IMG/VR virus record: IMGVR_UViG_3300035698_010352
Span: 1-24,955 of that record
From: a virus
DNA: 24,955 bases
Strand: one strand, 5' to 3'
In this document: positions 973 to 24,955 of the stretch, piece by piece
Layout of the letters: each line of letters opens with the position of its first letter
Numbering within the stretch: position 1 is the first letter of the stretch
Position numbers and translations under genes: made by a program
Notes under the pieces: model-generated
The model's input: the letters and a program-made list of their open reading frames with translations, nothing else
The model's database searches: none
What the model was told of the DNA's origin: nothing

Positions 973-1515
973 ATGACTGATAACGATATTGAAAATGAAA
1001 TACAGAAAAAAGGCTTAACAGCTCCCCGCATTACTCCTGATGATCTTGAGAAGGTTATTGTAAGTGAAACTTATCATGTGTTTGCTGGTTCTACGTTTAC
1101 CGCCTGTCTGTTGACGCTGAAGAATGGTTACAATTTGATAGGTGAATCAGCTTGTGTAAGTCCTGAAAATTTTAACGCTGAAATAGGTCGGGCTATTGCA
1201 CGTAAGAATGCAGTGAATAAAATCTGGGCATTAGAAGGATATTTATTACGACATATGTTGGTAAATAGAGGTGATCATGTAATGCGAGCCAAGCTTGTAG
1301 TGAACTCAGTAGACGAACAGGAAGAGTTCAGTCGAGTAACGTTTGGAGCAGTGTGTAAGAGTGATGGATATGATACAGATGGATCAGATGAAAATAACAC
1401 CTTCTCGAAGTTTACTCCAACTGCTGATCTGGATATGGTGATACAGAATCCTGAATTGATCGGAAGTCTTCAACTAGGTGATGAATACTACGTGGATTTT
1501 ACTAAAGCTGGTTAA
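973..1515 (+). CDS. N4 gp49 / Sf6 gp66-family protein fused to a second small phage domain
   Basis: The 180-aa protein has two parts. Residues 5-98 match what I know of the Phage_gp49_66 family (N4 Gp49 / Sf6 gene 66): an N-terminal EIQKKGLTAPRITP segment, then Y-H-x-F-x-G-S-T-x-T-x-C-L-L-T-L-K-N-G, G-E-S-A, the Asn-Phe/Ile-Gly/Ala segment and W-A-L-E-G-Y. Residues 104-180 resemble a separate small phage protein type ending in YYVDFTKA, with a Ser/Thr-Phe-x-Lys-Phe-Thr-Pro segment (145-150) and Asn-Pro (159-160). Met104 sits exactly at the joint. Neither domain has an established biochemical role that I can name. An AGAGAG run 9-14 bases upstream gives a modest ribosome-binding site. Confidence 0.8.
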   Translation: MTDNDIENEIQKKGLTAPRITPDDLEKVIVSETYHVFAGSTFTACLLTLKNGYNLIGESACVSPENFNAEIGRAIARKNAVNKIWALEGYLLRHMLVNRGDHVMRAKLVVNSVDEQEEFSRVTFGAVCKSDGYDTDGSDENNTFSKFTPTADLDMVIQNPELIGSLQLGDEYYVDFTKAG

Positions 1516-3624: not shown

Positions 3625-5259
3625 ATGACTACTGCTGTCGCTCCTCCAGTTAAAAAAGAACTTGAGGACTATATCCTTGAAGTTGATTATAAGGCTCTAA
3701 ACGAAACGTATATCCCATCAGCATTTGCTTTGGAATTTATATTGTTTATCAAAGCAGTGAATGGCGCAGAAGGTGAGGAAAACACTTCTCCTGTTATTCA
3801 TATGGACATGTTGGATCAACTTGTAATTGAGTGGGAAAATTTATTTGTAGCATTTCGTGGTAGTGCGAAAACATCTGTCATACATGAATACATGTTTCTT
3901 TATATTGCTGTTCATGGATCAGTCCCAGGATTTGGTAATATTGACGTTGCGATATACGTAAGTGATACCATTGAGAATGGAATTAAAAGTATGCGCCAAC
4001 AACTTGAGTATCGTTGGAATACTTCCGAATTTTTACAAAAATACTTACCTCGAATTGTTACTAATGAGAAAGGTGAACAGGTTATTGGTACCAAGTTTAC
4101 TGAAGCTCGGTGGGAATTTACAAATCTAGAGGGGCATAAGTTCTGCGTTCGTGGTTTTGGTGCCACTACAGGCGTTCGTGGTTTCAAAGAGTACGGTAAA
4201 CGTCCTGTTTGGTTAGGTATGGATGATCTATTATCGGATAAGAATTCTGATTCTCCTACGATCATTAAGGATATCCGAAACATCGTGTACAAAGCAGCTC
4301 GACAAGCCATGCACCCAGCCAAGCGAATGATACTATGGACCGGCACACCTTTTAATAAAAGAGACCCCTTGTATACTGCTGCGGGATCTAAAGCATGGAA
4401 TACTCGAGTATATCCAATATGTGAAAAATACCCCTGTACAAAGGAAGATTTTAGAGGTGGCTGGGAAGATCGATTTCCATACGAATTTGTACAGAATGAG
4501 TATAATCGTCTTTTAGAAAGTGGAGAGATATCCGCATTTAACCAGGAGCTTATGTTGAAAATTGTATCAGAAGAAGATCGATTAATTCAAGACAACGATA
4601 TCATGTGGTATAGCCGTGATAGTGTTATGCGTAATAGGCACCTGTTTAATTTTTACATAACAACTGATTGGGCTACAAGTGAAAAAGATGCCTCTGATCC
4701 AAGTGTGACGTTAGTATGGGCATACAGCTCTGTTGGTGACTGGTTTCTTGTAGAAGCGGTCGTAAAGCGGCAGTTAATGGATAAAAATATCGAAGATGTA
4801 TTTCGGTTATCCCAGTTTTATAAACCACAACAAGTAGGCATTGAAATATCGGGGCAACAGAAAGGATTTATTCCGTGGATCAAACAGAAAATGATAGATC
4901 GGAATCAGTGGTTTATATTGGCTAGTGATAATAATGGGAATCAAGAAGGGATTCGACCAGTCACTAAAAAGATTACCCGATTTTTATTGGTAGTACCTTG
5001 GTTTAAGGCTAAAACAATGTATTTCCCTGCTGACCTTAAACAAACACTTGAAATGCAGGAAATTTTGGAAGTACTTGTATTAGCTACAATGGAGGGGTTT
5101 AAGTCAAAAATTGACGACCCTGGGGATGCAATAAGCCAGTTGTCATCATTAACTCCGTGGAGACCTTCACCGGAAATGACTCTAGTAGTAAATGATCAAG
5201 AAATTTGGGGATATGAAGAAGAAGAAGTAATATCTGCGCGGGAGTCTTATATTGTATAA
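3625..5259 (+). CDS. terL: Terminase large subunit (packaging ATPase and nuclease)
   Basis: This 544-aa motor docks on the portal, translocates DNA into the prohead using ATP, and cuts the concatemer. The N-terminal ATPase has a Walker A-type AFRGSAKT (residues 76-83, Lys82), a Walker B region ending in Asp200-Asp201 (WLGMDDLLSDKN), and a coupling motif WTGTP (238-242). The C-terminal RNase H-like nuclease begins at YITTDWA (Asp348), continues with VGIEISG (Glu407) and ends with DDPGDAISQLS (Asp501), giving the expected acidic triad. The length is normal for the family. The ribosome-binding site is weak. It follows the probable small subunit and precedes the connector gene. The ATPase and nuclease halves are both intact. 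Confidence 0.96.
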   Translation: MTTAVAPPVKKELEDYILEVDYKALNETYIPSAFALEFILFIKAVNGAEGEENTSPVIHMDMLDQLVIEWENLFVAFRGSAKTSVIHEYMFLYIAVHGSVPGFGNIDVAIYVSDTIENGIKSMRQQLEYRWNTSEFLQKYLPRIVTNEKGEQVIGTKFTEARWEFTNLEGHKFCVRGFGATTGVRGFKEYGKRPVWLGMDDLLSDKNSDSPTIIKDIRNIVYKAARQAMHPAKRMILWTGTPFNKRDPLYTAAGSKAWNTRVYPICEKYPCTKEDFRGGWEDRFPYEFVQNEYNRLLESGEISAFNQELMLKIVSEEDRLIQDNDIMWYSRDSVMRNRHLFNFYITTDWATSEKDASDPSVTLVWAYSSVGDWFLVEAVVKRQLMDKNIEDVFRLSQFYKPQQVGIEISGQQKGFIPWIKQKMIDRNQWFILASDNNGNQEGIRPVTKKITRFLLVVPWFKAKTMYFPADLKQTLEMQEILEVLVLATMEGFKSKIDDPGDAISQLSSLTPWRPSPEMTLVVNDQEIWGYEEEEVISARESYIV

Positions 5260-5307
5260 TTCTTTTTATAGGATATACTCCGAAATATTCCCGATCTGGT
5301 AAAGGCT

Positions 5308-5997
5308 ATGCTTCTTACTGACATCTTTAGTAATATTACAACATTAGATTCCGCTAACACAAATTTAGCAGATCCAACTGGTGTACTCGCTACTGAACAT
5401 TACCCGAAAGTAATCAATGCTATTAATCGAGCATTGATAGAAATTTATTCCCAGTTCCCTGTAAAAGAAAAAATGCTTACTGTACAACTGTTTGCACATA
5501 TTTCTGAGTATATGCTGACTACTGAATACGCTGACACTAATACTGACTCGACACAACCTTACCGATATATTATGGATACATCATTTGATCCATATGATAA
5601 CGAAGTATTAAAGATTCAGACCATCACGAATGAAGAAGGTACTGAACTAGCACTGAATCAAGCAAATGATTCGTACTCGCTGTATACCCCATCGTATAAC
5701 GTAGTACAGCATCCTTACCCAACTAATGAAAACGCCATTTTTGTCACGTATCACGCATTACCAAAAACAATTCCAATGGATGTTGTTCCAGCGACTTACG
5801 ATGTTGATATCCCTGGGCATGTTTTAAATCTATTCTTAATTTTTGTAGCACATAAGGTACTTACAAGTATTAACCCAAAAGAGGCTGCATTTAAATTAAA
5901 TGAGTATATGAATTTATTAATTTCAACAAAAAATTTGGGGCTATTTGTTAAAGAAAACAGTTCAAATGAAAAATTTGAGGCGAATGGTTGGGTATGA
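5308..5997 (+). CDS. Head-tail connector / adaptor protein (gp4-like)
   Basis: The 229-aa protein has an N-terminal helical part (ADPTGVLATEHYPKVINAINRALIEIYSQF, residues about 21-50), a beta-rich middle, and a helical C-terminal part (VDIPGHVLNLFLIFVAHKVL) ending in FEANGWV. This layout, and the closing N-G-W-V, fit connector proteins of podovirus-like phages that add to the portal ring after packaging. The comparison is from memory of the family and there is no single diagnostic motif. AAAGG lies very close to the ATG. Its TGA overlaps the ATG of the first tail-fibre gene by 4 bases, so the two are probably translationally coupled. Confidence 0.65.
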   Translation: MLLTDIFSNITTLDSANTNLADPTGVLATEHYPKVINAINRALIEIYSQFPVKEKMLTVQLFAHISEYMLTTEYADTNTDSTQPYRYIMDTSFDPYDNEVLKIQTITNEEGTELALNQANDSYSLYTPSYNVVQHPYPTNENAIFVTYHALPKTIPMDVVPATYDVDIPGHVLNLFLIFVAHKVLTSINPKEAAFKLNEYMNLLISTKNLGLFVKENSSNEKFEANGWV

Positions 5998-6968
5998 CTA
6001 GTGAAGCGTCAGCTGTAGAAAAGTATATAAACACCTCATACGATGTTGTTAAAGCAGTTTATGATAATTTGGCTAAACTTACCCAATTAGCGGATAACCT
6101 CGCCATATTCGAAGCAATTAAGCCGCCTGTAATCGTCGCAGCTACAACTGATATAACGTTGTTTGGTTTACAGACGATCAATACAGTGGTTCTGGCCGTG
6201 GGTGATCGAGTGTTAGTTACGAATCAGAATATACCTGTAGAACACGGCATTTACATCGTGTCAGCAACCGATTGGATACGTTCTTCAGATTGGGATGAGT
6301 CAGCTGAAGTTAAATCTGGAATGCTTGTTTGTGATCAACAGGACAACGTTATTTATAAGAGTGCATTCTTAGGTGATTTTAATATTACAACAACTGAAAC
6401 CACATTTACCATAATACAGGCGCAGATTGGGGCCGTTGCCTCTACTGCAGGCGTATGGGTTGAGGTTAGTGATGGCGTTCCCCGCAATGGAGACACAGAC
6501 CTTGATCTGATATGGGATGAAACTCTGTATTACGCGATTCGAATTGTATTGGCGGGTGTACGGGTGGCCACAAGTCCCGCGACGATAACCGCGAGATTTG
6601 GGCATACAAATGGGTCTACATTTATAACGTCTAGTACTGGGTACACTGGAGCTATTGGAGGAAATATGGCCACCTTAGCCAGTGTTGGGGCGGTTAGTAG
6701 TATGAGTCTAGCCAGTGCCGGTGCCGTGTATGCGGGGAGCGACATTAGTATGGTTATTGATGTTATAAACTTTGAAGACGCGGGATCGGGCGCGAAGTTA
6801 TCTTGCGAAAGCACGTATCGTAATAGTAGCGGAATTCAATCACATTACAGCACTAGAATGTACACTAATGGGTCCACCTCAGCAGCTGTCGTAGATGCCC
6901 TTCGAATATCTTCCAATACTTCGTGGACAGCCTCTGGAGCCTATAAAGTGTACGGGCTATTAAAATGA
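5994..6968 (+). CDS. Tail fibre/spike protein A
   Basis: I start at ATG 5994, which overlaps the preceding TGA (ATGA); a TTG two codons earlier is less likely. Residues 1-140 are the virion-side domain shared with the next gene: a helical EKYINTSYDVVKAVYDNL, then the widespread phage fibre domain D-I-T-L-F-G-L-Q-T-I-N-T-V, G-D-R-V-L-V-T-N-Q-N, E-H-G-I-Y-I-V and W-I-R-S-S-D-W-D. Residues about 150-324 are beta-rich, rich in Ser, Gly and Ala, and end in GAYKVYGLLK, like receptor-binding C-terminal beta-sandwich domains of other fibres. At 324 aa it is short, so it may be a spike or a fibre attached to another. The tip-coding DNA is locally GC-richer than the surroundings (32 of 60 bases are G or C at 6661-6720). 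Confidence 0.85.
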   Translation: MTSEASAVEKYINTSYDVVKAVYDNLAKLTQLADNLAIFEAIKPPVIVAATTDITLFGLQTINTVVLAVGDRVLVTNQNIPVEHGIYIVSATDWIRSSDWDESAEVKSGMLVCDQQDNVIYKSAFLGDFNITTTETTFTIIQAQIGAVASTAGVWVEVSDGVPRNGDTDLDLIWDETLYYAIRIVLAGVRVATSPATITARFGHTNGSTFITSSTGYTGAIGGNMATLASVGAVSSMSLASAGAVYAGSDISMVIDVINFEDAGSGAKLSCESTYRNSSGIQSHYSTRMYTNGSTSAAVVDALRISSNTSWTASGAYKVYGLLK

Positions 6969-8506
6969 GCAATAAGGCAGTTCAAGTTGAACAATATATA
7001 AATACCTCGTATGACACCGTAAAGGCAGTCTATGATAACCTAGCCCAGCTCACCCAGTTAGCAGAAAACTTGGCTATATTTGAGGCGATTAAGCCTCCAG
7101 TCCTCGTAGTTACAGACGCAAGTATAACTCTCTTTGGTATCCAGACAATTAAGTCCGTTACAGTGGCTGAAGGTGATCGTGTATTAGTCACCAGCCAGAA
7201 TGCTGGAGTGGAGAATGGTATTTATATAGCGTCGACTGTCGCATGGGCTCGTTCGACTGATTGGGATGCTAATTCAGAAGTAAAGTCTGGAATGCTAATC
7301 TGTGATACAGATGAAACCGTATTATATAAAAGTTCGTTTACCGGTGATTTTGATATCACTAGCACGGTGGTGACGTTTATTCAGTTTTTAGATGTGACCG
7401 TGAATGAGGTTCCTTGGACACGAGATACAGCTGCAAACTGGACTGCGCTAAACACCGTCATTGCCTCGGGCATTGGTGGAATTGAGTCAGATACAGGGCA
7501 CTTTAAATTAGGCGACGGGAGCACAGCTTGGAACTCTTTGGGTTATAGTGGATTTGCTACGAAAGACTCAAATAACAATATTATCATGGGCACGGGCAGT
7601 GGAGGTAGCCTGGCCAGTAATGGCACGGTCGACGCTACGGTAATCGGTAATAACGCCCTTGCAGGAACATTAGTCCAGAACATAGATGGCATAATTGCTA
7701 TTGGTGATGGCGTTGGTGCCCAAGTAACAGGCGGAACAGGTTCAATCTTAATAGGACAAAATGCTGGCCCTGCAACCCCTAGCTCTATTAGTAACTCACT
7801 ATGGATATCAAACACTGAGACAGATACACCACTAATACATGGTGCGTTCAATACACGCGATCTACTTTTCAACATACAGAATGGTAGTTATACAGTAGCT
7901 GGTGCAACAGTAAAATTTGACTGCACATCCTTTGATTACTGGTCTGCAAATCCTGTATTAACTATACTGGACACTAGTGCTAGTAATGCTGGCAACGCAG
8001 TGGTGTCTATACAGATAGCGAGTCTTAACGGTGTACATGTTAAGTGTGGTTATCACTCAGCCGCTAACACTATCTATGAAATAGATAATACTGAAGGCCC
8101 AATTGAATTACTCGCTGGATCAAGCAACGGCGGGAAGGACATATTCCTAAACGGAGAGGTTCATTGTGAACAGGGCTTCCATTGCTCTGGGTTAAGCTAC
8201 TCTATAACAGCAGGTACTAAAACACTTGTGTTGAACCTAGCTAATCACTTCTATGCAGCTTCAGCAATGACTGCTGTGGCATACACCTTTGCGTTCAGCC
8301 TACCACCACCATCTGGACGGACTACAGAGTTTATAGTGGAAATAGAAGCTGGTTCGTCAGCATCAAGTATAACATGGCCTGCTTCAGTGCAATGGAGTGG
8401 TGGGAGTGAGCCGGTTTGGACAGCTAACACAGACTTAGTTAAATTTTATAGCCGTGACCAGGGTACAATTTGGCATGGTGTACGAATCATTTCTAACTCG
8501 TCATAA
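6965..8506 (+). CDS. Tail fibre protein B with MTD-like and beta-rich tip
   Basis: The start overlaps the previous stop (ATGA). Residues 1-140 align without gaps to protein A, with 92 of 140 identical by my hand count, so this is a paralogue in its anchor. Residues about 151-197 (WTRDTAANWTALNTV to KLGDGSTAWNSLGY) match a short domain common in phage tail proteins and in the N-terminal part of major tropism determinants. Residues about 225-300 hold Gly/Ile-rich repeats (IGNNALAG, IAIGDGVGA, ILIGQNAG) typical of a trimeric beta-helical shaft. The C-terminal part (about 430-513) contains SITWPASVQWSGG and ends in IWHGVRIISNSS, a common fibre tip. No C-type-lectin variable repeat is seen. It probably forms a trimeric receptor-binding fibre. 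Confidence 0.87.
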   Translation: MSNKAVQVEQYINTSYDTVKAVYDNLAQLTQLAENLAIFEAIKPPVLVVTDASITLFGIQTIKSVTVAEGDRVLVTSQNAGVENGIYIASTVAWARSTDWDANSEVKSGMLICDTDETVLYKSSFTGDFDITSTVVTFIQFLDVTVNEVPWTRDTAANWTALNTVIASGIGGIESDTGHFKLGDGSTAWNSLGYSGFATKDSNNNIIMGTGSGGSLASNGTVDATVIGNNALAGTLVQNIDGIIAIGDGVGAQVTGGTGSILIGQNAGPATPSSISNSLWISNTETDTPLIHGAFNTRDLLFNIQNGSYTVAGATVKFDCTSFDYWSANPVLTILDTSASNAGNAVVSIQIASLNGVHVKCGYHSAANTIYEIDNTEGPIELLAGSSNGGKDIFLNGEVHCEQGFHCSGLSYSITAGTKTLVLNLANHFYAASAMTAVAYTFAFSLPPPSGRTTEFIVEIEAGSSASSITWPASVQWSGGSEPVWTANTDLVKFYSRDQGTIWHGVRIISNSS

Positions 8507-8533: not shown

Positions 8534-10003
8534 ATGTCTAGAAAAACGAATCCATCAAATCCAGCAGGGCTTATACAAAAATTTGCTAACACTGCCTATG
8601 ATAAAATATTAACAGTCTATAATAATTTAACTGGTATCACGTTAGTTTCTGACAATATCGCGGCAGTTATTGAAATTGGTACAGTCACAGATTTGTCTAA
8701 TTTAGAAAGTAATTTAATACTATTCTTTAGTACACCACCTATCGGTGTTAAAGCACCTACAGTCGTATCGACTATTGGTAATATCACCCTTAGTGGTGAA
8801 CAAACAATTAATACTGTACCTGTTTTAGCCAATAATCGAGTTCTTGTCCGAAACCAGACAGATCCAACTGAAAATGGTATTTATAACGTAAATGTAAGTA
8901 CATGGATTCGCTCAACAGATTGGGATGATGCAACAGATGTTCTAAATGGTGTGACGATCATAGATAGTCATACTAGTGCGCTCTATCGTTGTACTTTCAC
9001 AGGTACGTATGACCCAGGTACCTCATCCGTGACCTTTAATGTCATTACTGCTCCTACTGTGATTGATGATCTTAGTGATGTGGATACAAGTTCAATTGCT
9101 CCTACTGATGGACAAATTCTAGTATTTGATAACGCGTCCGGTGATTGGCTACCTGCATCAACATTTGTAGGTGATGTTACGGGGGATCTCACTGGTGACA
9201 TTACAGGTAATACTACTATTGGTGGTAACGCGATTATCACTGGCGATCTTACGGTTAACGGTACAACAACTACGATAAATACAACTGAGCTGGAAGTTCA
9301 AGATAATATTATTCGATTAAATATCGATGAAGCTGGAACACCTTCTCAAAACGCAGGAATTGAGGTTGAACGGGGTACATCAGCTAATGTTCAAATTAGG
9401 TGGAATGAATCAGGAGACTATTGGGAAATTACAAATGATGGGTCGACCTATTCTCAGCTATTAAACGCTACACTTACAGATGCGTTAATTAAGACAGCAA
9501 ATGAACGAAATACAAATACTAATGAATTCAACGACGCTGAGAAAACTAAGTTAGGTACTGTTAGTTCTGGTGCTGAGGTTAACCCTGGTGTTATTAGCCA
9601 AGCTGAAGCTGAAGCTGGTACTGCAACAGATGAACGTATCTTTACTGCTGAACGTGTTAAACAGGCAATCGTCGCTCAAGCAGGAGGAGGCTTACTTACT
9701 AAGACCATTGAGATTGGTTCCTGGGATATGGACACTGTTTATTCTGTTAATGTTGCTCACGGTCTTGACATCGCTAATATCCGGGATGTAAGTGTGTCAA
9801 TACGTTCAGATGGCGACAGCATTCGACGACCTCTTAATGGTACCCGAGGTCAAGCTGTTACTATGGCTCAATTAGGTTTTTGGCACGCAGATGCAACAAA
9901 TGTGATATGTCAAGCACCTACTGGTAGTCCATATGATGGAGATGGTGACTATAATGGGTCAGCCAATCGAGGTTGGGTCATTATCCAACACGTAACACCT
10001 TAA
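8534..10003 (+). CDS. Tail fibre protein C with collar-type repeats
   Basis: The 489-aa protein starts with the same helical plus beta anchor layout as proteins A and B, but with a longer linker: residues 82-170 include NITLSGEQTINTV, NNRVLVRNQ, ENGIYNV and WIRSTDWDD. Residues 213-260 form a Gly-Asp-x-Thr repeat stretch (GDVTGDLTGDITGNTTIGG, then GDLTVNGTTTTINT) known from T4-type long-tail-fibre and many other fibre shafts. Residues 350-385 (EVNPGVISQAEAEAGTA, then RIFTAERVKQAI) are a widespread fibre segment. Residues 390-489 form a beta-rich tip. AGAGAT 10 bases upstream fits a ribosome-binding site. Its codon use is AT-rich like that of the rest of the operon. Confidence 0.88.
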   Translation: MSRKTNPSNPAGLIQKFANTAYDKILTVYNNLTGITLVSDNIAAVIEIGTVTDLSNLESNLILFFSTPPIGVKAPTVVSTIGNITLSGEQTINTVPVLANNRVLVRNQTDPTENGIYNVNVSTWIRSTDWDDATDVLNGVTIIDSHTSALYRCTFTGTYDPGTSSVTFNVITAPTVIDDLSDVDTSSIAPTDGQILVFDNASGDWLPASTFVGDVTGDLTGDITGNTTIGGNAIITGDLTVNGTTTTINTTELEVQDNIIRLNIDEAGTPSQNAGIEVERGTSANVQIRWNESGDYWEITNDGSTYSQLLNATLTDALIKTANERNTNTNEFNDAEKTKLGTVSSGAEVNPGVISQAEAEAGTATDERIFTAERVKQAIVAQAGGGLLTKTIEIGSWDMDTVYSVNVAHGLDIANIRDVSVSIRSDGDSIRRPLNGTRGQAVTMAQLGFWHADATNVICQAPTGSPYDGDGDYNGSANRGWVIIQHVTP

Positions 10004-19123: not shown

Positions 19124-19660
19124 ATGACAAATAATCAACGTATAAACGGTCGGGATAATCGGTACCAACCCATCCCTACATATAACCCAGATTACCCACA
19201 ATTTGATGCGAATAACCAATCCAGTTTTCAAAATATTCCATCATTGGATAGTCTTGGTCCGGCAAACAGTATTCCTAACTTTCCCAATTTTGATGCAAAT
19301 GACCCGAGTACCTTTCAAGGTATCCCAAATCTCGATAGTCTTGGATCTGCTCAGAAATTACCTAAGAAAAATGGCTTTAATTGGTTAGGTAAAGATGGTG
19401 TGTTAATTCCAAGTCTAGAAACATTCGGTGCCGCTTCAGCTGCCTATATTGGATTGGAACAATTAAAGTTAAATAAAGAAACCTTTAAGTTTAATAAAGA
19501 CCTTACTAAAGCTAATTTTGGTAATCAGGCACAGACTACCAATAACGCTATAGAGGATCGATCTCGAGCGGGTGCTGTACAATCTGGAGAATCTGGATCT
19601 AGCTTAGATCAGGTTGTCGCCCATCGAACTGCGAATCGACGAGTACGAGCGAGCATATAA
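19124..19660 (+). CDS. Small internal/structural virion protein with a 29-residue tandem repeat
   Basis: The 178-aa protein has a Pro/Asn-rich N-terminal half with two copies of a repeat, residues 25-51 and 54-80 (P-x-F-D-A-N-x-x-S-x-F-Q-x-I-P-x-L-D-S-L-G). The C-terminal half is helical and polar (LEQLKLNKETFKFNKDLTKA, then NQAQTTNNAIEDRSRAG). This C-terminal pattern (lots of Phe-Asn-Lys, N-Q-A, D-R-x-R-A) is frequent in small proteins just before the large internal virion proteins of podovirus-like phages. An AGG 8 bases before the ATG fits a start. The stop overlaps the next ATG by one base (TAATG). Confidence 0.68.
   Translation: MTNNQRINGRDNRYQPIPTYNPDYPQFDANNQSSFQNIPSLDSLGPANSIPNFPNFDANDPSTFQGIPNLDSLGSAQKLPKKNGFNWLGKDGVLIPSLETFGAASAAYIGLEQLKLNKETFKFNKDLTKANFGNQAQTTNNAIEDRSRAGAVQSGESGSSLDQVVAHRTANRRVRASI
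19196..19363 (+). repeat. Two-copy tandem repeat of about 87 bp (29 residues)
   Basis: Copies start at about 19196 and 19283. The encoded peptides share P-F-D-A-N, S-F-Q, I-P, L-D-S-L-G and the closing Pro in register, with several codon-level differences, so the duplication is not very recent. Confidence 0.8.
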
Positions 19661-21687
19661 TGGCTAGTCAAATTAAATTTCAAAGTGTAAGTGCTGCTAA
19701 CCTACAAGCCCCTGATGTAACGAAAGCAGGGGCTATTTTTAGCGGTGCTATTCAATCACTGGCTAAAACGGTCAAGGGTGTTGAGATCGGACGACAGGAG
19801 GCAGCTACGGACGATGTGAAGACCAACCTTCGTAATGCTAATAACCAGAGTGATCTACAAGACATCAAAACCACACAAATTGGTGATTTAGCTGATTTAG
19901 GTGTAGATGGTGAGCAACTTGATGCTTTGACTGGTCGGGTACAAAATAAACAGACTGATGTGTTCGGTCGAGCGTTAGAAGACAACTATAATAATCAGAC
20001 TGACCGTAACTCTTCAGCTGTTCAAAGAATTCTAGCAGGTAACCCTGATCTTGGTAGAAGTGTTCAATTGGATAGTGGTGGAAACTTTGCTTTTTCTGCT
20101 CCAAATGAAAATCTGTCTGCACAGCAAATCGAAGAAGATAAAGTTAACTTTTTTCAAACTTTACGAGATAGTGCGTTTAAACCTGTCAATAATGAGCGGC
20201 AGCAAAATAAACAAATTCGTGAAGAAGCGAAAGCCTTTAATGCTACACCAGAACAGACTAATAAATTAGTCAGTAATTTCAAATCGTTTAAAGATGGTTT
20301 GAAGTCTCTCACCGATGAAGATCAACTTCAGGTCAATCAAGTTGTTGGTCAAAATCAGGCTGATCTGGATCAAGAAATTGAGGAGATTAATTTTCAGAAA
20401 CGGACCTTAGAAGATCGTTATCAAATTACTCAGGAAGAGGCGCGAACTGAATTAAATACAAAACGACAAGATGTTGAAGCTTGGGTTACTGCTAAGCTTC
20501 CAACTGAATTAAACTTTCTATATTCATTTTTCACTGGTGGTGCTCAGAAAGGTGGGCAAGATATTAAAGAATATTTTTCTAAAATTTTTAATGGGAAAAT
20601 TACTAAATTTAAAGACCATAAAGTACAGCCGTGGATGTTACAACGTGCTTTATCAAGTACAGTAGATCTTGAAGCTGATGGTAGACCTAATATAGATATC
20701 AGTGACTTTGAAGATCGATTATTAGAACTTGCTAAAGATAAGGATATGCACAAAGATATGCGGTATATCGCTAATTCAGATGTCATTGTTAAACGAGATA
20801 TTGCAAATGCGACTGCACGAGCTAGTATTCGTAATAAGGACATTGTTGCTGAGTTCAAACGGTCAACCATTGGTATTCGTGATCCAAACCGAAATGCTAA
20901 AATCTTTCAAGATTATTTTAATAAGGTAAGTAGTCTTGAAAATCCTCTAGAGGCTAGTGTGGCTATCGCTAACGCTGAGAAAAGAATAACAGCTCCTAAA
21001 ACAGCGCAAACAGATCCAACTACAATTGAACCTTCGGATTCATTCTTTGAAGATGATCTACCACCTGCTGATGATGGTACTCCTGCAGATCCAGTATTGG
21101 CGGCAAATATTGAGGCAGCTGAGATCTTTGATGTAGAAAACTCTGTTGATGTCGGCAACTTAACCCCAGAAATTGTAAAACAATTAGCACCTGAACAAAT
21201 TGGTGAGGGGTTTCCACCAGAAGTCGTTAAATCGTTAGATATACTCACTCGTCAAGCGTATCTTAATAAACTTGATACCAGTAAGCGTTATGGTAAGGCT
21301 TCACGACAAGTACTTACAGATGCAATGGAAGGCCTTATTAACCTTAAAGATGGTTTTATGTCCATTATTGATAAAATATTTTCTGCCCCTGAAGCTGAAA
21401 GTAACCCAGTAATAAATCCCCAAATACCCGCAGATCCTATTCAAAAAGCAGCCCAAAAACGTGTTACGAGTTTACAATTAAATCTTGATAGGATTCTTTC
21501 AAATGCAACGAAAGAACGTCAAGTAAGTCTCCAACGTGAATTTGATGTGCGAAAAAAACAACTGTCTAGAGGTGAGCCGCTATCTGAAGCAAAATTGAAA
21601 GAAATGCTAGATATCGGGGAAGAGTTAGCTTTACTTGTAGGGGCATCTCCTAGTGATATCAAAAAACTTAGAAACCAGTATAAATAA
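19660..21687 (+). CDS. Internal virion protein (probable ejection protein 1)
   Basis: The 675-aa protein begins MASQIKFQSVSAANLQAPDV followed by a helical segment (AGAIFSGAIQSLAKTVKGVE), a start style that I know from internal virion proteins of many podovirus-like phages. It is overwhelmingly hydrophilic and helical, with coiled-coil-like parts near residues 205-270 and at the C-terminus (about 600-670), and an acidic Pro-rich linker near residues 445-475. No enzymatic motif is seen. Its position directly before another large protein with hydrophobic segments suggests a pair that enters the cell with the genome. The start is one base into the previous stop. Confidence 0.7.
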   Translation: MASQIKFQSVSAANLQAPDVTKAGAIFSGAIQSLAKTVKGVEIGRQEAATDDVKTNLRNANNQSDLQDIKTTQIGDLADLGVDGEQLDALTGRVQNKQTDVFGRALEDNYNNQTDRNSSAVQRILAGNPDLGRSVQLDSGGNFAFSAPNENLSAQQIEEDKVNFFQTLRDSAFKPVNNERQQNKQIREEAKAFNATPEQTNKLVSNFKSFKDGLKSLTDEDQLQVNQVVGQNQADLDQEIEEINFQKRTLEDRYQITQEEARTELNTKRQDVEAWVTAKLPTELNFLYSFFTGGAQKGGQDIKEYFSKIFNGKITKFKDHKVQPWMLQRALSSTVDLEADGRPNIDISDFEDRLLELAKDKDMHKDMRYIANSDVIVKRDIANATARASIRNKDIVAEFKRSTIGIRDPNRNAKIFQDYFNKVSSLENPLEASVAIANAEKRITAPKTAQTDPTTIEPSDSFFEDDLPPADDGTPADPVLAANIEAAEIFDVENSVDVGNLTPEIVKQLAPEQIGEGFPPEVVKSLDILTRQAYLNKLDTSKRYGKASRQVLTDAMEGLINLKDGFMSIIDKIFSAPEAESNPVINPQIPADPIQKAAQKRVTSLQLNLDRILSNATKERQVSLQREFDVRKKQLSRGEPLSEAKLKEMLDIGEELALLVGASPSDIKKLRNQYK

Positions 21688-24201
21688 ATGGAAAATTTAA
21701 TACGAGAGTTAAAAACTCGTACACTGGCTGCTGCGAGTGCTGATAAGCGTTCTTTATTGAATATACCTTCTATTGAACAAAAACTAGCATCTGGGCAGTC
21801 TGGACTTTTAAATACATCTCTAGCAGATCAACCATCAATTTCTTCAAGTAGTCTTGATGAATTTGAACCACTTACTGAGAGAGTTGCAGCACATACAACT
21901 GCTGATCAAGCTAGGTCATTAACCCCTGCCCGAGATAACAAAGCTTTCTTAGATGATAATTCTGTTGAAAATGGTTTGGGGTACTTAACCAACTTTATTG
22001 GAGCAGGTGTAGCGGGTATTGGTCAATTAGATAATTTTGTCCTCTCTGCTCCAAATATTTTACTTAATACTGCAGATGGTCTAATAAAACCAGCTGATCA
22101 AAAAATTACTGATTTCGTAAATGAGACTTTTCCAGGCGTTAATGATATTGCCCATTTGCTTTTAGGTGCTCCGAGTAAACTTATTAGGAATACAGCTCAA
22201 GGATTAGATCAAGTTGGTGATACGATCGAAGAAGGTACTGCACCCTTTTTTAATACTGTTCAAGTTGAACGGTTGTCTCGTCAAGTGTCTCAGGCGTACA
22301 CCGATAATACTGGCGCTGCTGATGTGCTCGTCGAGATGCTTTCTACAACGGTCAATAACAAAGAAGCACTTCCTCAAGTACTCATGCAATCCATTGGGAT
22401 TATGAAAGCTATGGCTCAAGGCGGATCAGTATTGGCAGGTACTTTTGTTGGCTTAAGTGGTCAAAGATCTAAGGAAGCTATTCAACTGTATAGTGATACA
22501 CATGATGGTGAAGTACCTACTGGTAAGGAAAACGCCGCAATAGTGGCCGGTGCAATTCTTTCGACCACTATTGAAATGGTTGAATCGCGTTTTTTACTGG
22601 GTAAAAGTGCTCAATTACAAGCTGCCAAATCTATTAAATTAGCAGCAATACCTGGGGCAGGCGTAGTTGCTAAAGGTACTGCTGGTGGATTATCTGAAGC
22701 TGGCCAAGAATTTTCAGCTGAAGTCATTACTCAAGTGACTGGTAGACAGGACAAGATTACAAATAAAGATGAAATTCTTAAACCAGCACTGACTAATGCT
22801 GCCATAGGTGCTGGTGTAGGTACTGGTATAGCCGCTACAGTCCAAGCTGTGCCTGAAACCACAGATACACTAGGGAAAGTTGCTAAGATTGCTAAGAAGG
22901 GCATTAACAAGCTCTCAGAGAAGGTTGAAGAAAAGGTTACTGTAGATCAAGGTAAACGCTTTGATAAGGCAGTGGCTAATGGTGACAAGGTTAAAGCTAT
23001 TGATATTGGACTTGAAGCTAATATTTCAAAGATACCCACTTATGATGAACGTGTAGCTCATGTTCAAGAGCTATTTGATATATTCGATACGTTAGATGAA
23101 ACCACCTCAATTGAGGACACTAATCGTATTGGTAGTAAATTGGATACTACGCTGCAACAAATTACAGAATTGGATTTACAAGAAGGTGATTCTGTAACTA
23201 CGAAACAAGCTGATACAGTTCTTTCAGATATTACCAATGCTTCCGAAAATGATGTTACTACAGCTATATCAACAGTAGTTGATGGCATCCTTTCTGGTAA
23301 AGAAATTAAACCAGTTACAGTAGCCAGTATTAAAGGTAGTACAGTATTTGAAACACTTCCTACTGAACAAAAACAAGCAATTGAGGTATACAGTGAATTC
23401 TTAGAAGCAAGTAACGATCTACAAAAAGTTAGTTCAGATATCTTAGAGGGAAATGTAAAAGAAGGGCATATCGGGATTAATCAGCATCGTAAAAATATTG
23501 CTCGTGCTGTTACACTTAAAAATCAAGGTTTAGCTGATATTACTCTGAAGCAGTTGGTTAAGTTACGAGCTGCAATACTAGTAAAATTGGCTACACCCTT
23601 TCGTGATCAAAAACCTAATACTGATGGTTTTGTCAGGCAGCTATCATCTGAAGTACGAGCGATTACAGCTGCCCTTAATATTATGGATACGAGTGTTAAA
23701 ACAACACTTACAAGTCCACTAACTGCTGAGGATTTAAAGGGGCCACCTATTGTGGTATGGACCCCTAATTCATCGGTAAACTCTACGAGTACTGATACCG
23801 ATACTAAAGTGTCAGAAGAAGCTAAAGCCCAGTTACTCTCAAATATTAAAAAAATTACTGACCCAAAACTAAAAGAAAAGGTTTTACAGCTGTTTAATGA
23901 TCCTAAACGCACCAGTAAGAAAGGATTTACAGCTTTACGAGAGCAAGTAAAGAAAGCACTTATTGCCCAGGATACTACTGAGCAGCCTGATGAAGTTTCA
24001 CCAATAGTTGCAAGAGCTGATAGTTTTGATGCATTATTGGATACTGAGATACCAGCTCCTGATTTATATAACACTCCAGCGTTGCAAAAGAAGATTGTAT
24101 TTCAAGGCAAAGCATTAAGAGAAACCTATAAACAGGCTATTGTAAATAACGATAATATTCTAAGAGCGGTTCAGGATATTGTACGAGAATGTAATGGCTG
24201 A
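21688..24201 (+). CDS. Internal virion protein with hydrophobic segments (probable ejection protein 2)
   Basis: The 837-aa protein starts directly after the preceding TAA. A polar N-terminus (1-90) is followed by hydrophobic, Gly/Ala-rich helices: GLGYLTNFIGAGVAGIGQLD (96-115), GSVLAGTFVGLSG (246-258), NAAIVAGAILSTTIEMV (282-298), LAAIPGAGVVAKGTAGGL (318-335) and ALTNAAIGAGVGTGIAATVQ (367-386). The segment GGLSEAGQEFSAEV (333-346) resembles the G-x-x-E-x-x-Q-E pattern found in many phage internal proteins and large polyvalent proteins. The C-terminal half is hydrophilic and helical. No lytic transglycosylase Glu motif was found. A role in building a channel across the host envelope during DNA entry is an inference. 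The 8-base overlap with the next gene suggests coupling. Confidence 0.72.
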   Translation: MENLIRELKTRTLAAASADKRSLLNIPSIEQKLASGQSGLLNTSLADQPSISSSSLDEFEPLTERVAAHTTADQARSLTPARDNKAFLDDNSVENGLGYLTNFIGAGVAGIGQLDNFVLSAPNILLNTADGLIKPADQKITDFVNETFPGVNDIAHLLLGAPSKLIRNTAQGLDQVGDTIEEGTAPFFNTVQVERLSRQVSQAYTDNTGAADVLVEMLSTTVNNKEALPQVLMQSIGIMKAMAQGGSVLAGTFVGLSGQRSKEAIQLYSDTHDGEVPTGKENAAIVAGAILSTTIEMVESRFLLGKSAQLQAAKSIKLAAIPGAGVVAKGTAGGLSEAGQEFSAEVITQVTGRQDKITNKDEILKPALTNAAIGAGVGTGIAATVQAVPETTDTLGKVAKIAKKGINKLSEKVEEKVTVDQGKRFDKAVANGDKVKAIDIGLEANISKIPTYDERVAHVQELFDIFDTLDETTSIEDTNRIGSKLDTTLQQITELDLQEGDSVTTKQADTVLSDITNASENDVTTAISTVVDGILSGKEIKPVTVASIKGSTVFETLPTEQKQAIEVYSEFLEASNDLQKVSSDILEGNVKEGHIGINQHRKNIARAVTLKNQGLADITLKQLVKLRAAILVKLATPFRDQKPNTDGFVRQLSSEVRAITAALNIMDTSVKTTLTSPLTAEDLKGPPIVVWTPNSSVNSTSTDTDTKVSEEAKAQLLSNIKKITDPKLKEKVLQLFNDPKRTSKKGFTALREQVKKALIAQDTTEQPDEVSPIVARADSFDALLDTEIPAPDLYNTPALQKKIVFQGKALRETYKQAIVNNDNILRAVQDIVRECNG

Positions 24202-24529
24202 ATTAACTTTACAAGATCTACTAGATTCAGGCTTATCTCTTGAAAACCTCATTATGGGTAAAGGAGAGGCTCCTATTGTACAGGTAACACTAGATAGTCG
24301 TGAATTAGCTAAAGCTTTGCGTGAATTAAAAAATTCGCATAGTTTAGAAATGTCTAGTGTGTTGGACCGCATTGACATTAATAATAAATCAAATAAAGAT
24401 ATACTAGTTAAAGCAATTAGTTTGCTAGTCCAAAAAGCAAAACAAACACCACCAATTAAGCCTGTTAAAGGCTTACGAGTACTACGTAATAGTTTAAATT
24501 TAATCACTGAATTGAGGTACATCACCTAA
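24194..24529 (+). CDS. Hypothetical 111-aa protein before the endolysin
   Basis: I start at ATG 24194 (CGAGAA about 4-9 bases upstream); an in-frame TTG at 24179 is less likely. The protein (MAELTLQDLLDSGLSLENLI and on) is helical and charged, with one long helix (ELAKALRELKNSHSLEMSSV) and a Lys-rich middle. There is no signal peptide or membrane segment, so it is neither a typical holin nor a spanin. It overlaps the preceding gene by 8 bases, and its stop overlaps the endolysin ATG by one base. Its place suggests an internal-virion or lysis accessory role, but no family is recognised. Confidence 0.65.
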   Translation: MAELTLQDLLDSGLSLENLIMGKGEAPIVQVTLDSRELAKALRELKNSHSLEMSSVLDRIDINNKSNKDILVKAISLLVQKAKQTPPIKPVKGLRVLRNSLNLITELRYIT

Positions 24530-24955
24530 TGGGTAACCTATCCCCCCGATTGAGTCGCTATGAGTTCGAATGTCCTTGTGCGAATAAACATGACTGTAAT
24601 CGAACACCCGTCGATATAAAACTAATTGAAATGTTAGAAACCTGTGCTAACCATTTTCAATATTTTACTCGTACTAGTGTAGCTCGTGTTATCATTCATG
24701 TTAATTCAGGTTATAGGTGTAAACAACATGATGCTGATATTAAAAAAGGAAAGAAACCTAACCCCAAATTGAGTGAGCACCTATTTGGCATAGCTGCTGA
24801 TTTTTGGTTAGAGTACGTGTACCAAGATGGTTCTCGGGATAAAATATCAGATGATGAAGTTGCTGACTTTCTTGAATTAGAATACCCAGGTGTATATGGC
24901 ATTGGCCGGTATGATACACGAACACACGCTGACGCAAGACCCGATGGTCCTGCAC
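24529..24955 (+). CDS. M15-family zinc peptidase, probable endolysin (partial at the 3' end)
   Basis: The visible 142 residues belong to the Peptidase_M15_3 (D-Ala-D-Ala carboxypeptidase-like) type, which cleaves the peptide of peptidoglycan. After LSRYEFECPC (8-17), the core has VNSGYRCKQHD (58-68), then the zinc motif SEHLFGIAAD (82-91; His84 and Asp91 as likely ligands) and GIGRYDTRTHADARP (124-138; His133 as the third ligand). An unusual Cys-rich start (Cys15, Cys17, Cys23) may be a small metal or disulfide site. The frame runs off the right edge, so a cell-wall-binding or membrane segment after it cannot be excluded. The ATG overlaps the previous stop (TAATG). Confidence 0.9.
   Translation, partial: MGNLSPRLSRYEFECPCANKHDCNRTPVDIKLIEMLETCANHFQYFTRTSVARVIIHVNSGYRCKQHDADIKKGKKPNPKLSEHLFGIAADFWLEYVYQDGSRDKISDDEVADFLELEYPGVYGIGRYDTRTHADARPDGPA

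Follow-up and report, generated by a model that had tools for sequence, protein, structure and literature searches.

A phage open reading frame that joins an Acb4-type domain to a second small phage family

The open reading frame at positions 973–1515 of the window (the whole 24,955-base stretch of viral DNA analysed here) raises the question of whether its 180 codons encode one protein or two that have been joined, and, if two, what the joining means. A sequence-only reading had divided the frame at Met104 into a gp49/Sf6-66-type domain, normally found alone, and a different small phage protein. It had further suggested that a stop codon between two adjacent genes had been lost, that translation may start again at Met104 and that the two halves, both taken to be of unknown role, work together. 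The contig matches terminase, portal, major head protein and a partial virion RNA polymerase, and among the phages of the collection Vibrio phage phi50-12 (Schitoviridae) matches it best; from these matches the window virus is probably N4-like. In phi50-12 the gene for Acb4 sits one gene upstream of that for the terminase. The features of the frame are collected in Table 1.

Table 1 Features of the open reading frame and of its joint.
Feature	Positions	Strand	Basis
Fused ORF, 180 aa (Acb4-type sponge domain + small phage domain)	973–1515	+	ATG start; Pfam, PHROGs
PF13876/Acb4 domain, residues 20–95	1030–1257	+	Pfam, family HMM vs 9E4W, Foldseek
Joint, residues 96–103	1258–1281	+	Short tails of Acb4 homologues end here (13 close homologues)
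GAGGTGATC, likely internal ribosome-binding site (predicted)	1268–1276	+	9-nt exact complement, E. coli-type 16S rRNA 3' end
TAATG stop/start overlap	1280–1284	+	TAA in frame 1, ATG (Met104) in frame 0
C-terminal domain, residues 104–180	1282–1512	+	phrog_6978; 128 loci including the window; AF2

Two protein families in one frame

The frame comprises two unrelated protein families. The N-terminal half matches PF13876 with an E value of 4.6e-29 (101.2 bits against a curated cut-off of 27), which bears out the gp49/Sf6-66-type assignment. A single family covering all 180 residues is ruled out: no profile of that span was found, and the best PHROGs profile of the whole protein, phrog_322, starts at residue 1 and stops at residue 115. 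Residues 104–180 match no Pfam or NCBIfam model at E ≤ 1, and their sole match in PHROGs is to positions 212–282 of the 284 positions of phrog_6978 (E = 1.7e-11). With no profile in common to the two halves, and with separate homologues of residues 104–180 present as stand-alone proteins in other phages, the second half is indeed a different small phage protein, and the two families meet exactly at Met104.

The homology of the N-terminal half to Acb4 makes this identity close to certain. The solved Acb4 structure 9E4W is both its best sequence match and its best structural match, being reached by the single sequence with phmmer at E = 9.6e-5 and by an HMM built from the family alignment (A2) at E = 2.3e-9. 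The top 13 rows of a Foldseek search with the full-length model are all chains of 9E4W (best E 4.9e-4, nine at E ≤ 0.001), with an RMSD of 1.4–1.7 over 66–70 columns in six of the 13 and of at least 4.7 in the other seven. The full-length model, computed from a 16-row alignment because larger mixed alignments misaligned the halves, is weak (pLDDT 72.3, pTM 0.45), and pLDDT falls below 50 at residues 94–96. The elements of its N-terminal half (H22–28, E29–36, E42–49, E54–60 and H69–97) reproduce the SPO1 Acb4 fold, in which helices flank three strands.

According to Chang et al. (PMC11722364), SPO1 Acb4 is a tetrameric member of PF13876 that sequesters CBASS signals, and N4 gp48 is treated as an Acb4 in PMC12657230. 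The description of both halves as being of unknown role is thus wrong for the N-terminal one. In PMC11722364, 3'3'-cGAMP was bound by all eight homologues assayed, whereas 3'3'-cAA was bound solely by homologues from phages of Gram-negative hosts; with a Gram-negative host, binding of 3'3'-cAA would thus be predicted for the present protein too. Nine of the ten ligand contacts of SPO1 Acb4 were mapped through the phmmer alignment, with K81 left out. The window protein retains F62, N63 and I66 (as F67, N68 and I71), and the aromatic F48 corresponds to Y53. The other five of the nine (K36, E49, V56, Y57 and T70) are changed to T41, N54, C61, V62 and I75, all of which except N54 are the commonest residue among 27 aligned family members. 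Acb4 activity of the N-terminal half is likely.

The C-terminal domain is a member of a distinct family of small phage proteins, which normally stand alone. A profile scan detected it in 128 of 250 loci, the window included, some viral and genome-collection loci being identical and the 128 thus not all independent. In viral contigs, 276 places hold a confirmed relative, 80 of them being retained, and a genome scan contributed 40 loci. By eye, in most copies listed the start of a protein of ~70–95 residues coincides with Met104 or precedes it by a few residues; some listed copies extend upstream as a longer open frame. In an alignment of 111 sequences including the window (A4), K4, P46 and D72 are invariant and R2, A3, V24, E37, N56, G66, Y70 and F73 nearly so; the window domain carries the family features, namely the MRAK start, P46, G66 and the YxDF end. 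At another locus (L112), the domain is followed by a further 67-residue tail that has no Pfam match at E ≤ 0.1.

The AlphaFold2 model of the C-terminal domain (pLDDT 91.2, 111 sequences) is a compact β fold with the order E-E-H-E-E (E2–12, E17–23, H37–44, E49–54 and E68–72), perhaps OB-like. Its fold matches, among them MopII/ModE, riboflavin synthase and an RNA polymerase II subunit, are weak, with a best Foldseek E value of 0.26 and VIA Z scores of 4.1–5.5 among the matches listed, many of them tied and the best at 5.5. None of the 376 Foldseek matches in the PDB (E ≤ 10) reaches E ≤ 0.001, and the fold comparison therefore says nothing on the function of the domain; nor is its being missing from the known sponge folds evidence. 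The profile of A4 gave no match at E ≤ 10 among solved structures. Assignment of the C-terminal half to the Tad2-like, RyR or crAss001_48 families was ruled out, as no Pfam family matches at E ≤ 1, and none of the PADLOC models matches it at E ≤ 0.01.

These observations bear on an account of the C-terminal half in which it is a nucleic-acid-binding protein, or a virion or lysis accessory protein, unrelated to immune evasion. We regard this as a substantial possibility, short of probable; it concerns this half alone and is compatible with the explanation of the whole protein that we favour below. The weak fold matches that speak for it include telomerase Teb1, MCM domains and the RNA polymerase II subunit, all of which we take to be OB folds. 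Stand-alone copies lie among genes of various kinds (head-tail, endolysin and nucleotide metabolism functions among 75 neighbours scanned, picked from 212 candidates defined by a crude ORF rule), and in Marinobacter phage AS1 the gene lies between those of the major tail protein and the tape measure. However, the lack of any PDB match at the Foldseek threshold given above weighs against this account, and an accessory anti-defence gene would equally be expected to be small and to vary in its genomic position.

The joint and its internal start

The sequence GATCATGTAATG occupies positions 1273–1284 and ends with the Met104 codon (1282–1284), with the predicted ribosome-binding site 5 nt before this ATG. 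Scored against an E. coli-type 16S 3' end, a sequence that we assumed and that may not be the host's, the duplex of this site has an energy of −16.6 kcal/mol, which ranks first among 112 internal in-frame ATGs, the runner-up having −9.3, and is stronger than that at each of 19 gene starts (best −9.0). We estimate that a 9-mer match within 20 bases would arise by chance about twice in 10,000 cases. Eight L-series loci with extended Acb4 frames have no site of like strength at the joint; one internal start away from the joint reaches −10.8 in these loci. Promoter-like sites near the frame occur at the chance level (two found against 3.1 expected), and RNA folding of positions 1240–1320 is ordinary (z = −0.34).

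Internal translation from Met104, which the sequence-only reading had raised as a possibility, is well supported by this 9-nt Shine-Dalgarno match. Since Met104 is also the start of the stand-alone relatives, a free 77-residue protein would be expected in addition to the fusion, and the gene likely yields two products. The proposed loss of a stop codon between adjacent genes differs in one detail from what is observed. The Shine-Dalgarno match and the TAATG overlap make the joint look like the former junction of two genes, of which the second probably still has its own start. The TAA at 1280–1282, however, lies in a different frame from the open reading frame and belongs to the stop/start overlap; it is not an in-frame stop. 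TAATG also joins two adjacent open frames at 24527–24531.

Because the fusion of Acb4 with this C-terminal domain is seen in one record only, an error of sequencing or assembly has to be considered, in which two adjacent genes with a Shine-Dalgarno sequence and a stop/start overlap were fused by a small error near the joint. The marks of two genes at the joint (the Shine-Dalgarno match, TAATG and a start codon where the stand-alone protein starts) are in keeping with such an error, as are the stops that frames 1 and 2 contain within the joint, at 1262 and 1280 and at 1266 and 1272, respectively. We nevertheless judge it unlikely. An unsystematic look at the 18 other ORFs taken as genes noticed no broken gene, and eight of the ten ORFs scanned have a PHROG match, which in six extends across roughly three quarters of the ORF or more; the two with no PHROG match are 19660–21687 and 24179–24529. 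A frameshifted virion RNA polymerase near 24190 was considered as a sign of poor assembly and rejected, as the arrangement at that place resembles a normal gene overlap; the 116-residue frame near that position has neither a PHROG match nor a phage match at E ≤ 1. Genuine Acb4 fusions, described in the next section, also argue against an error.

Several other genes of the contig were noted in passing. Upstream of the Acb4 gene, a small ORF on the minus strand (442–702) has a weak relative in locus L014 (25% over 65 columns), which is on the reverse strand upstream of a terminase. The adjacent proteins of 5988–6968, 6965–8506 and 8534–10003 share, by eye, alike N-terminal stretches of the VEQYINTSYDTVKAVYDNL type, and that of 6965–8506 matches tail-fibre families. 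The frame at 24530–24955 is cut by the contig end and by eye resembles a peptidase M15-type endolysin.

Occurrence of the pairing and of other Acb4 fusions

The expectation that the two halves would occur as separate neighbouring genes in other phages was not borne out. None of the 127 other C-domain loci has an Acb4 match in its flanking stretch, none of the 118 other Acb4 loci has a C-domain in its own, and neither domain occurs in the flanks of the terminase relatives L013–L016. Searches of whole records, many of which are probably fragments, found Acb4 in 0 of 49 C-domain records (the same search being positive in 5/5 known records) and the C-domain in 0 of 48 Acb4 records (positive controls 2/2). 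As Acb4 matches occur in 844 of 50,697 phage records at E ≤ 1, absence from some 50 records is insignificant, and avoidance is neither shown nor excluded. Pseudomonas phages RSP and KPP23 seemed to match residues 1–151, but in RSP the gene stops once the Acb4 part is complete, and the gene annotated next to it is on the opposite strand. Of the argument from Rosetta-stone logic that the halves work together, the fusion itself stands; the argument has this one fusion in one record as its basis, and the halves were never found as separate neighbours.

Acb4 is mostly a stand-alone domain, as had been supposed: the tail beyond it is of 15 residues or fewer in 94 of 120 hits and of 16–40 residues in nine. 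The view of a tail as an exception does not hold, since 17 of the hits, the window included, have more than 40 residues beyond the domain. Pfam was run on eight of the 16 other long tails, and on the N-terminal extension of L026 and the tail of L112. A known second domain exceeds its curated cut-off in five of the eight: a Tad2-like domain in L053 (IMGVR_UViG_2832576359_000003, 4623–5753; E = 2.4e-20), RyR in L230 (4992–5648; 8.4e-11) and crAss001_48 (PF21825) in L226 (5001–5552; 4.8e-17), L234 (4992–5498; 2.5e-15) and L041 (3717–4562; 6.8e-8). No second Pfam domain was found in the L216, L030 and L035 tails, the L026 extension or the L112 tail.

The same joins recur in all four named phages checked: Acb4-Tad2 in Pasteurella phage Pm86 (AWY03314; L261:289–846), Acb4-RyR in Vibrio phage 1.151.O (AUR90902; L260:301–957) and, scanned without its first codons, Salmonella phage pertopsoe (QIO03259; L263:1–825), and Acb4-crAss001_48 in Vibrio phage 1.013.O (AUR81814; L262:286–777). 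By tblastn, phage records with one place covering at least 80% of the query number 96 of 500 for the L226 type, 13 of 769 for L230 and 0 of 290 for L053, where a place may join two pieces and is not guaranteed to be a single frame in each record. Fusion of Acb4 to a second domain is thus genuine and recurrent. The literature covered, which leaves out most subscription papers, yielded no description of a fusion of Acb4 with Tad2, RyR or the C-terminal domain. PMC11722364 mentions 'additional extensions' in several members of the Acb4 family; in PMC11722364 and PMC13232231 the word 'fusion' occurs twice each, in every case with reference to purification tags, and PMC13232231 makes no mention of 'Acb4'.

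Three further arrangements were observed. The Acb4-RyR gene of pertopsoe adjoins a putative nicotinamide phosphoribosyltransferase gene. In L225 (contig G078, ~49989–50592), an Acb4 match that begins at 50311 has a Tad2-like match (49989–50264) immediately upstream of it, both on one strand. The extensions N-terminal to Acb4 in L053 and L026 are alike (27% over 81 columns, E = 5e-6 in a single comparison) and form another unnamed small domain fused to Acb4.

These fusions also bear on whether the window protein is real but neutral, its frame opened by accident, the internal start still making the C-terminal domain and the fusion having no joint function. No second fused or neighbouring pair was found and the internal Shine-Dalgarno sequence is fully kept, as a recent event would predict. 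On the other side, Acb4 is fused to other domains in different phages, so that appended domains are tolerated or useful there, and the eight extended-Acb4 loci lack a comparably strong site at the joint. We consider a neutral fusion rather improbable.

Putative role and relation to known systems

We lean, with modest confidence, towards a counter-defence protein with two domains, from a phage that is probably N4-like, in which protein an Acb4 sponge carries a β domain that is also made free. The N-terminal half would be a tetrameric Acb4-type sponge that sequesters CBASS cyclic dinucleotides. The C-terminal half would be a separately folded small β domain, elsewhere a stand-alone accessory protein and here carried on the sponge, and the strong internal ribosome-binding site would let the same mRNA also yield the free 77-residue domain from Met104. 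The two domains may also share a role. Against it stand the occurrence of the fusion in a single record, the lack of records shared by the two families, the five changed contacts out of nine, the weak full-length model and the assumed E. coli-type 16S sequence.

To our knowledge, crAss001_48 has no known role. Tad2 is a Thoeris sponge (PMC11722364), and the RyR proteins of phages act on the cADPR signals of Thoeris by degrading or sequestering them (PMC13232231). The partners of Acb4 whose role is known thus belong to anti-Thoeris families, which makes the C-terminal domain a candidate anti-defence family, and by analogy crAss001_48 is another anti-defence candidate. In a bolder form, which we offer as speculative and doubt on balance, the C-terminal domain would found a new family of phage immune-signal-binding proteins, either sponges or hydrolases, being a further module on Acb4 that is also made free. 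Phages would, in the same reading, combine Acb4 with anti-Thoeris modules (Tad2, RyR) and further ones and so defeat several nucleotide-signalling defences with one polypeptide. The lack of a known role for crAss001_48 weighs against an anti-defence C-terminal domain, as do the mixed neighbourhoods, in which one of the 75 neighbours scanned is Tad2-like (E = 2.7e-25), and the presence of Tad2 in 1 of the 49 C-domain records. Tad2 occurs in 5 of the 48 Acb4 records, the fusion L053 among the five, and this sharing of records does not tie the C-terminal domain to defence. Acb4 fusions may serve as bait for anti-defence domains yet to be recognized, with crAss001_48 and the C-terminal domain (276 places in viral contigs and no Pfam or NCBIfam model) as candidates.

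Among known systems, the N-terminal half resembles Acb4 (SPO1 gp1.3, PDB accession number 9E4W; N4 gp48) in its family profile, its fold and an ENFN core with the equivalents of F62, N63 and I66. SPO1 Acb4 consists of 96 residues alone, whereas the window protein adds a second domain of 77 residues and departs from SPO1 at five of the nine contacts mapped. This second domain resembles the last ~71 positions of phrog_6978. It also ends the 282-residue protein of PMBT3 and the 132-residue protein of Lana, the only two BFVD structures matched at E ≤ 0.001; their N-terminal parts look of low complexity by eye and are not Acb4. The Acb4-Tad2, Acb4-RyR and Acb4-crAss001_48 proteins differ from the window protein in their second domain and, in the L loci, in having no comparably strong Shine-Dalgarno sequence at the joint, but they share its architecture, Acb4 followed by a second small phage domain.
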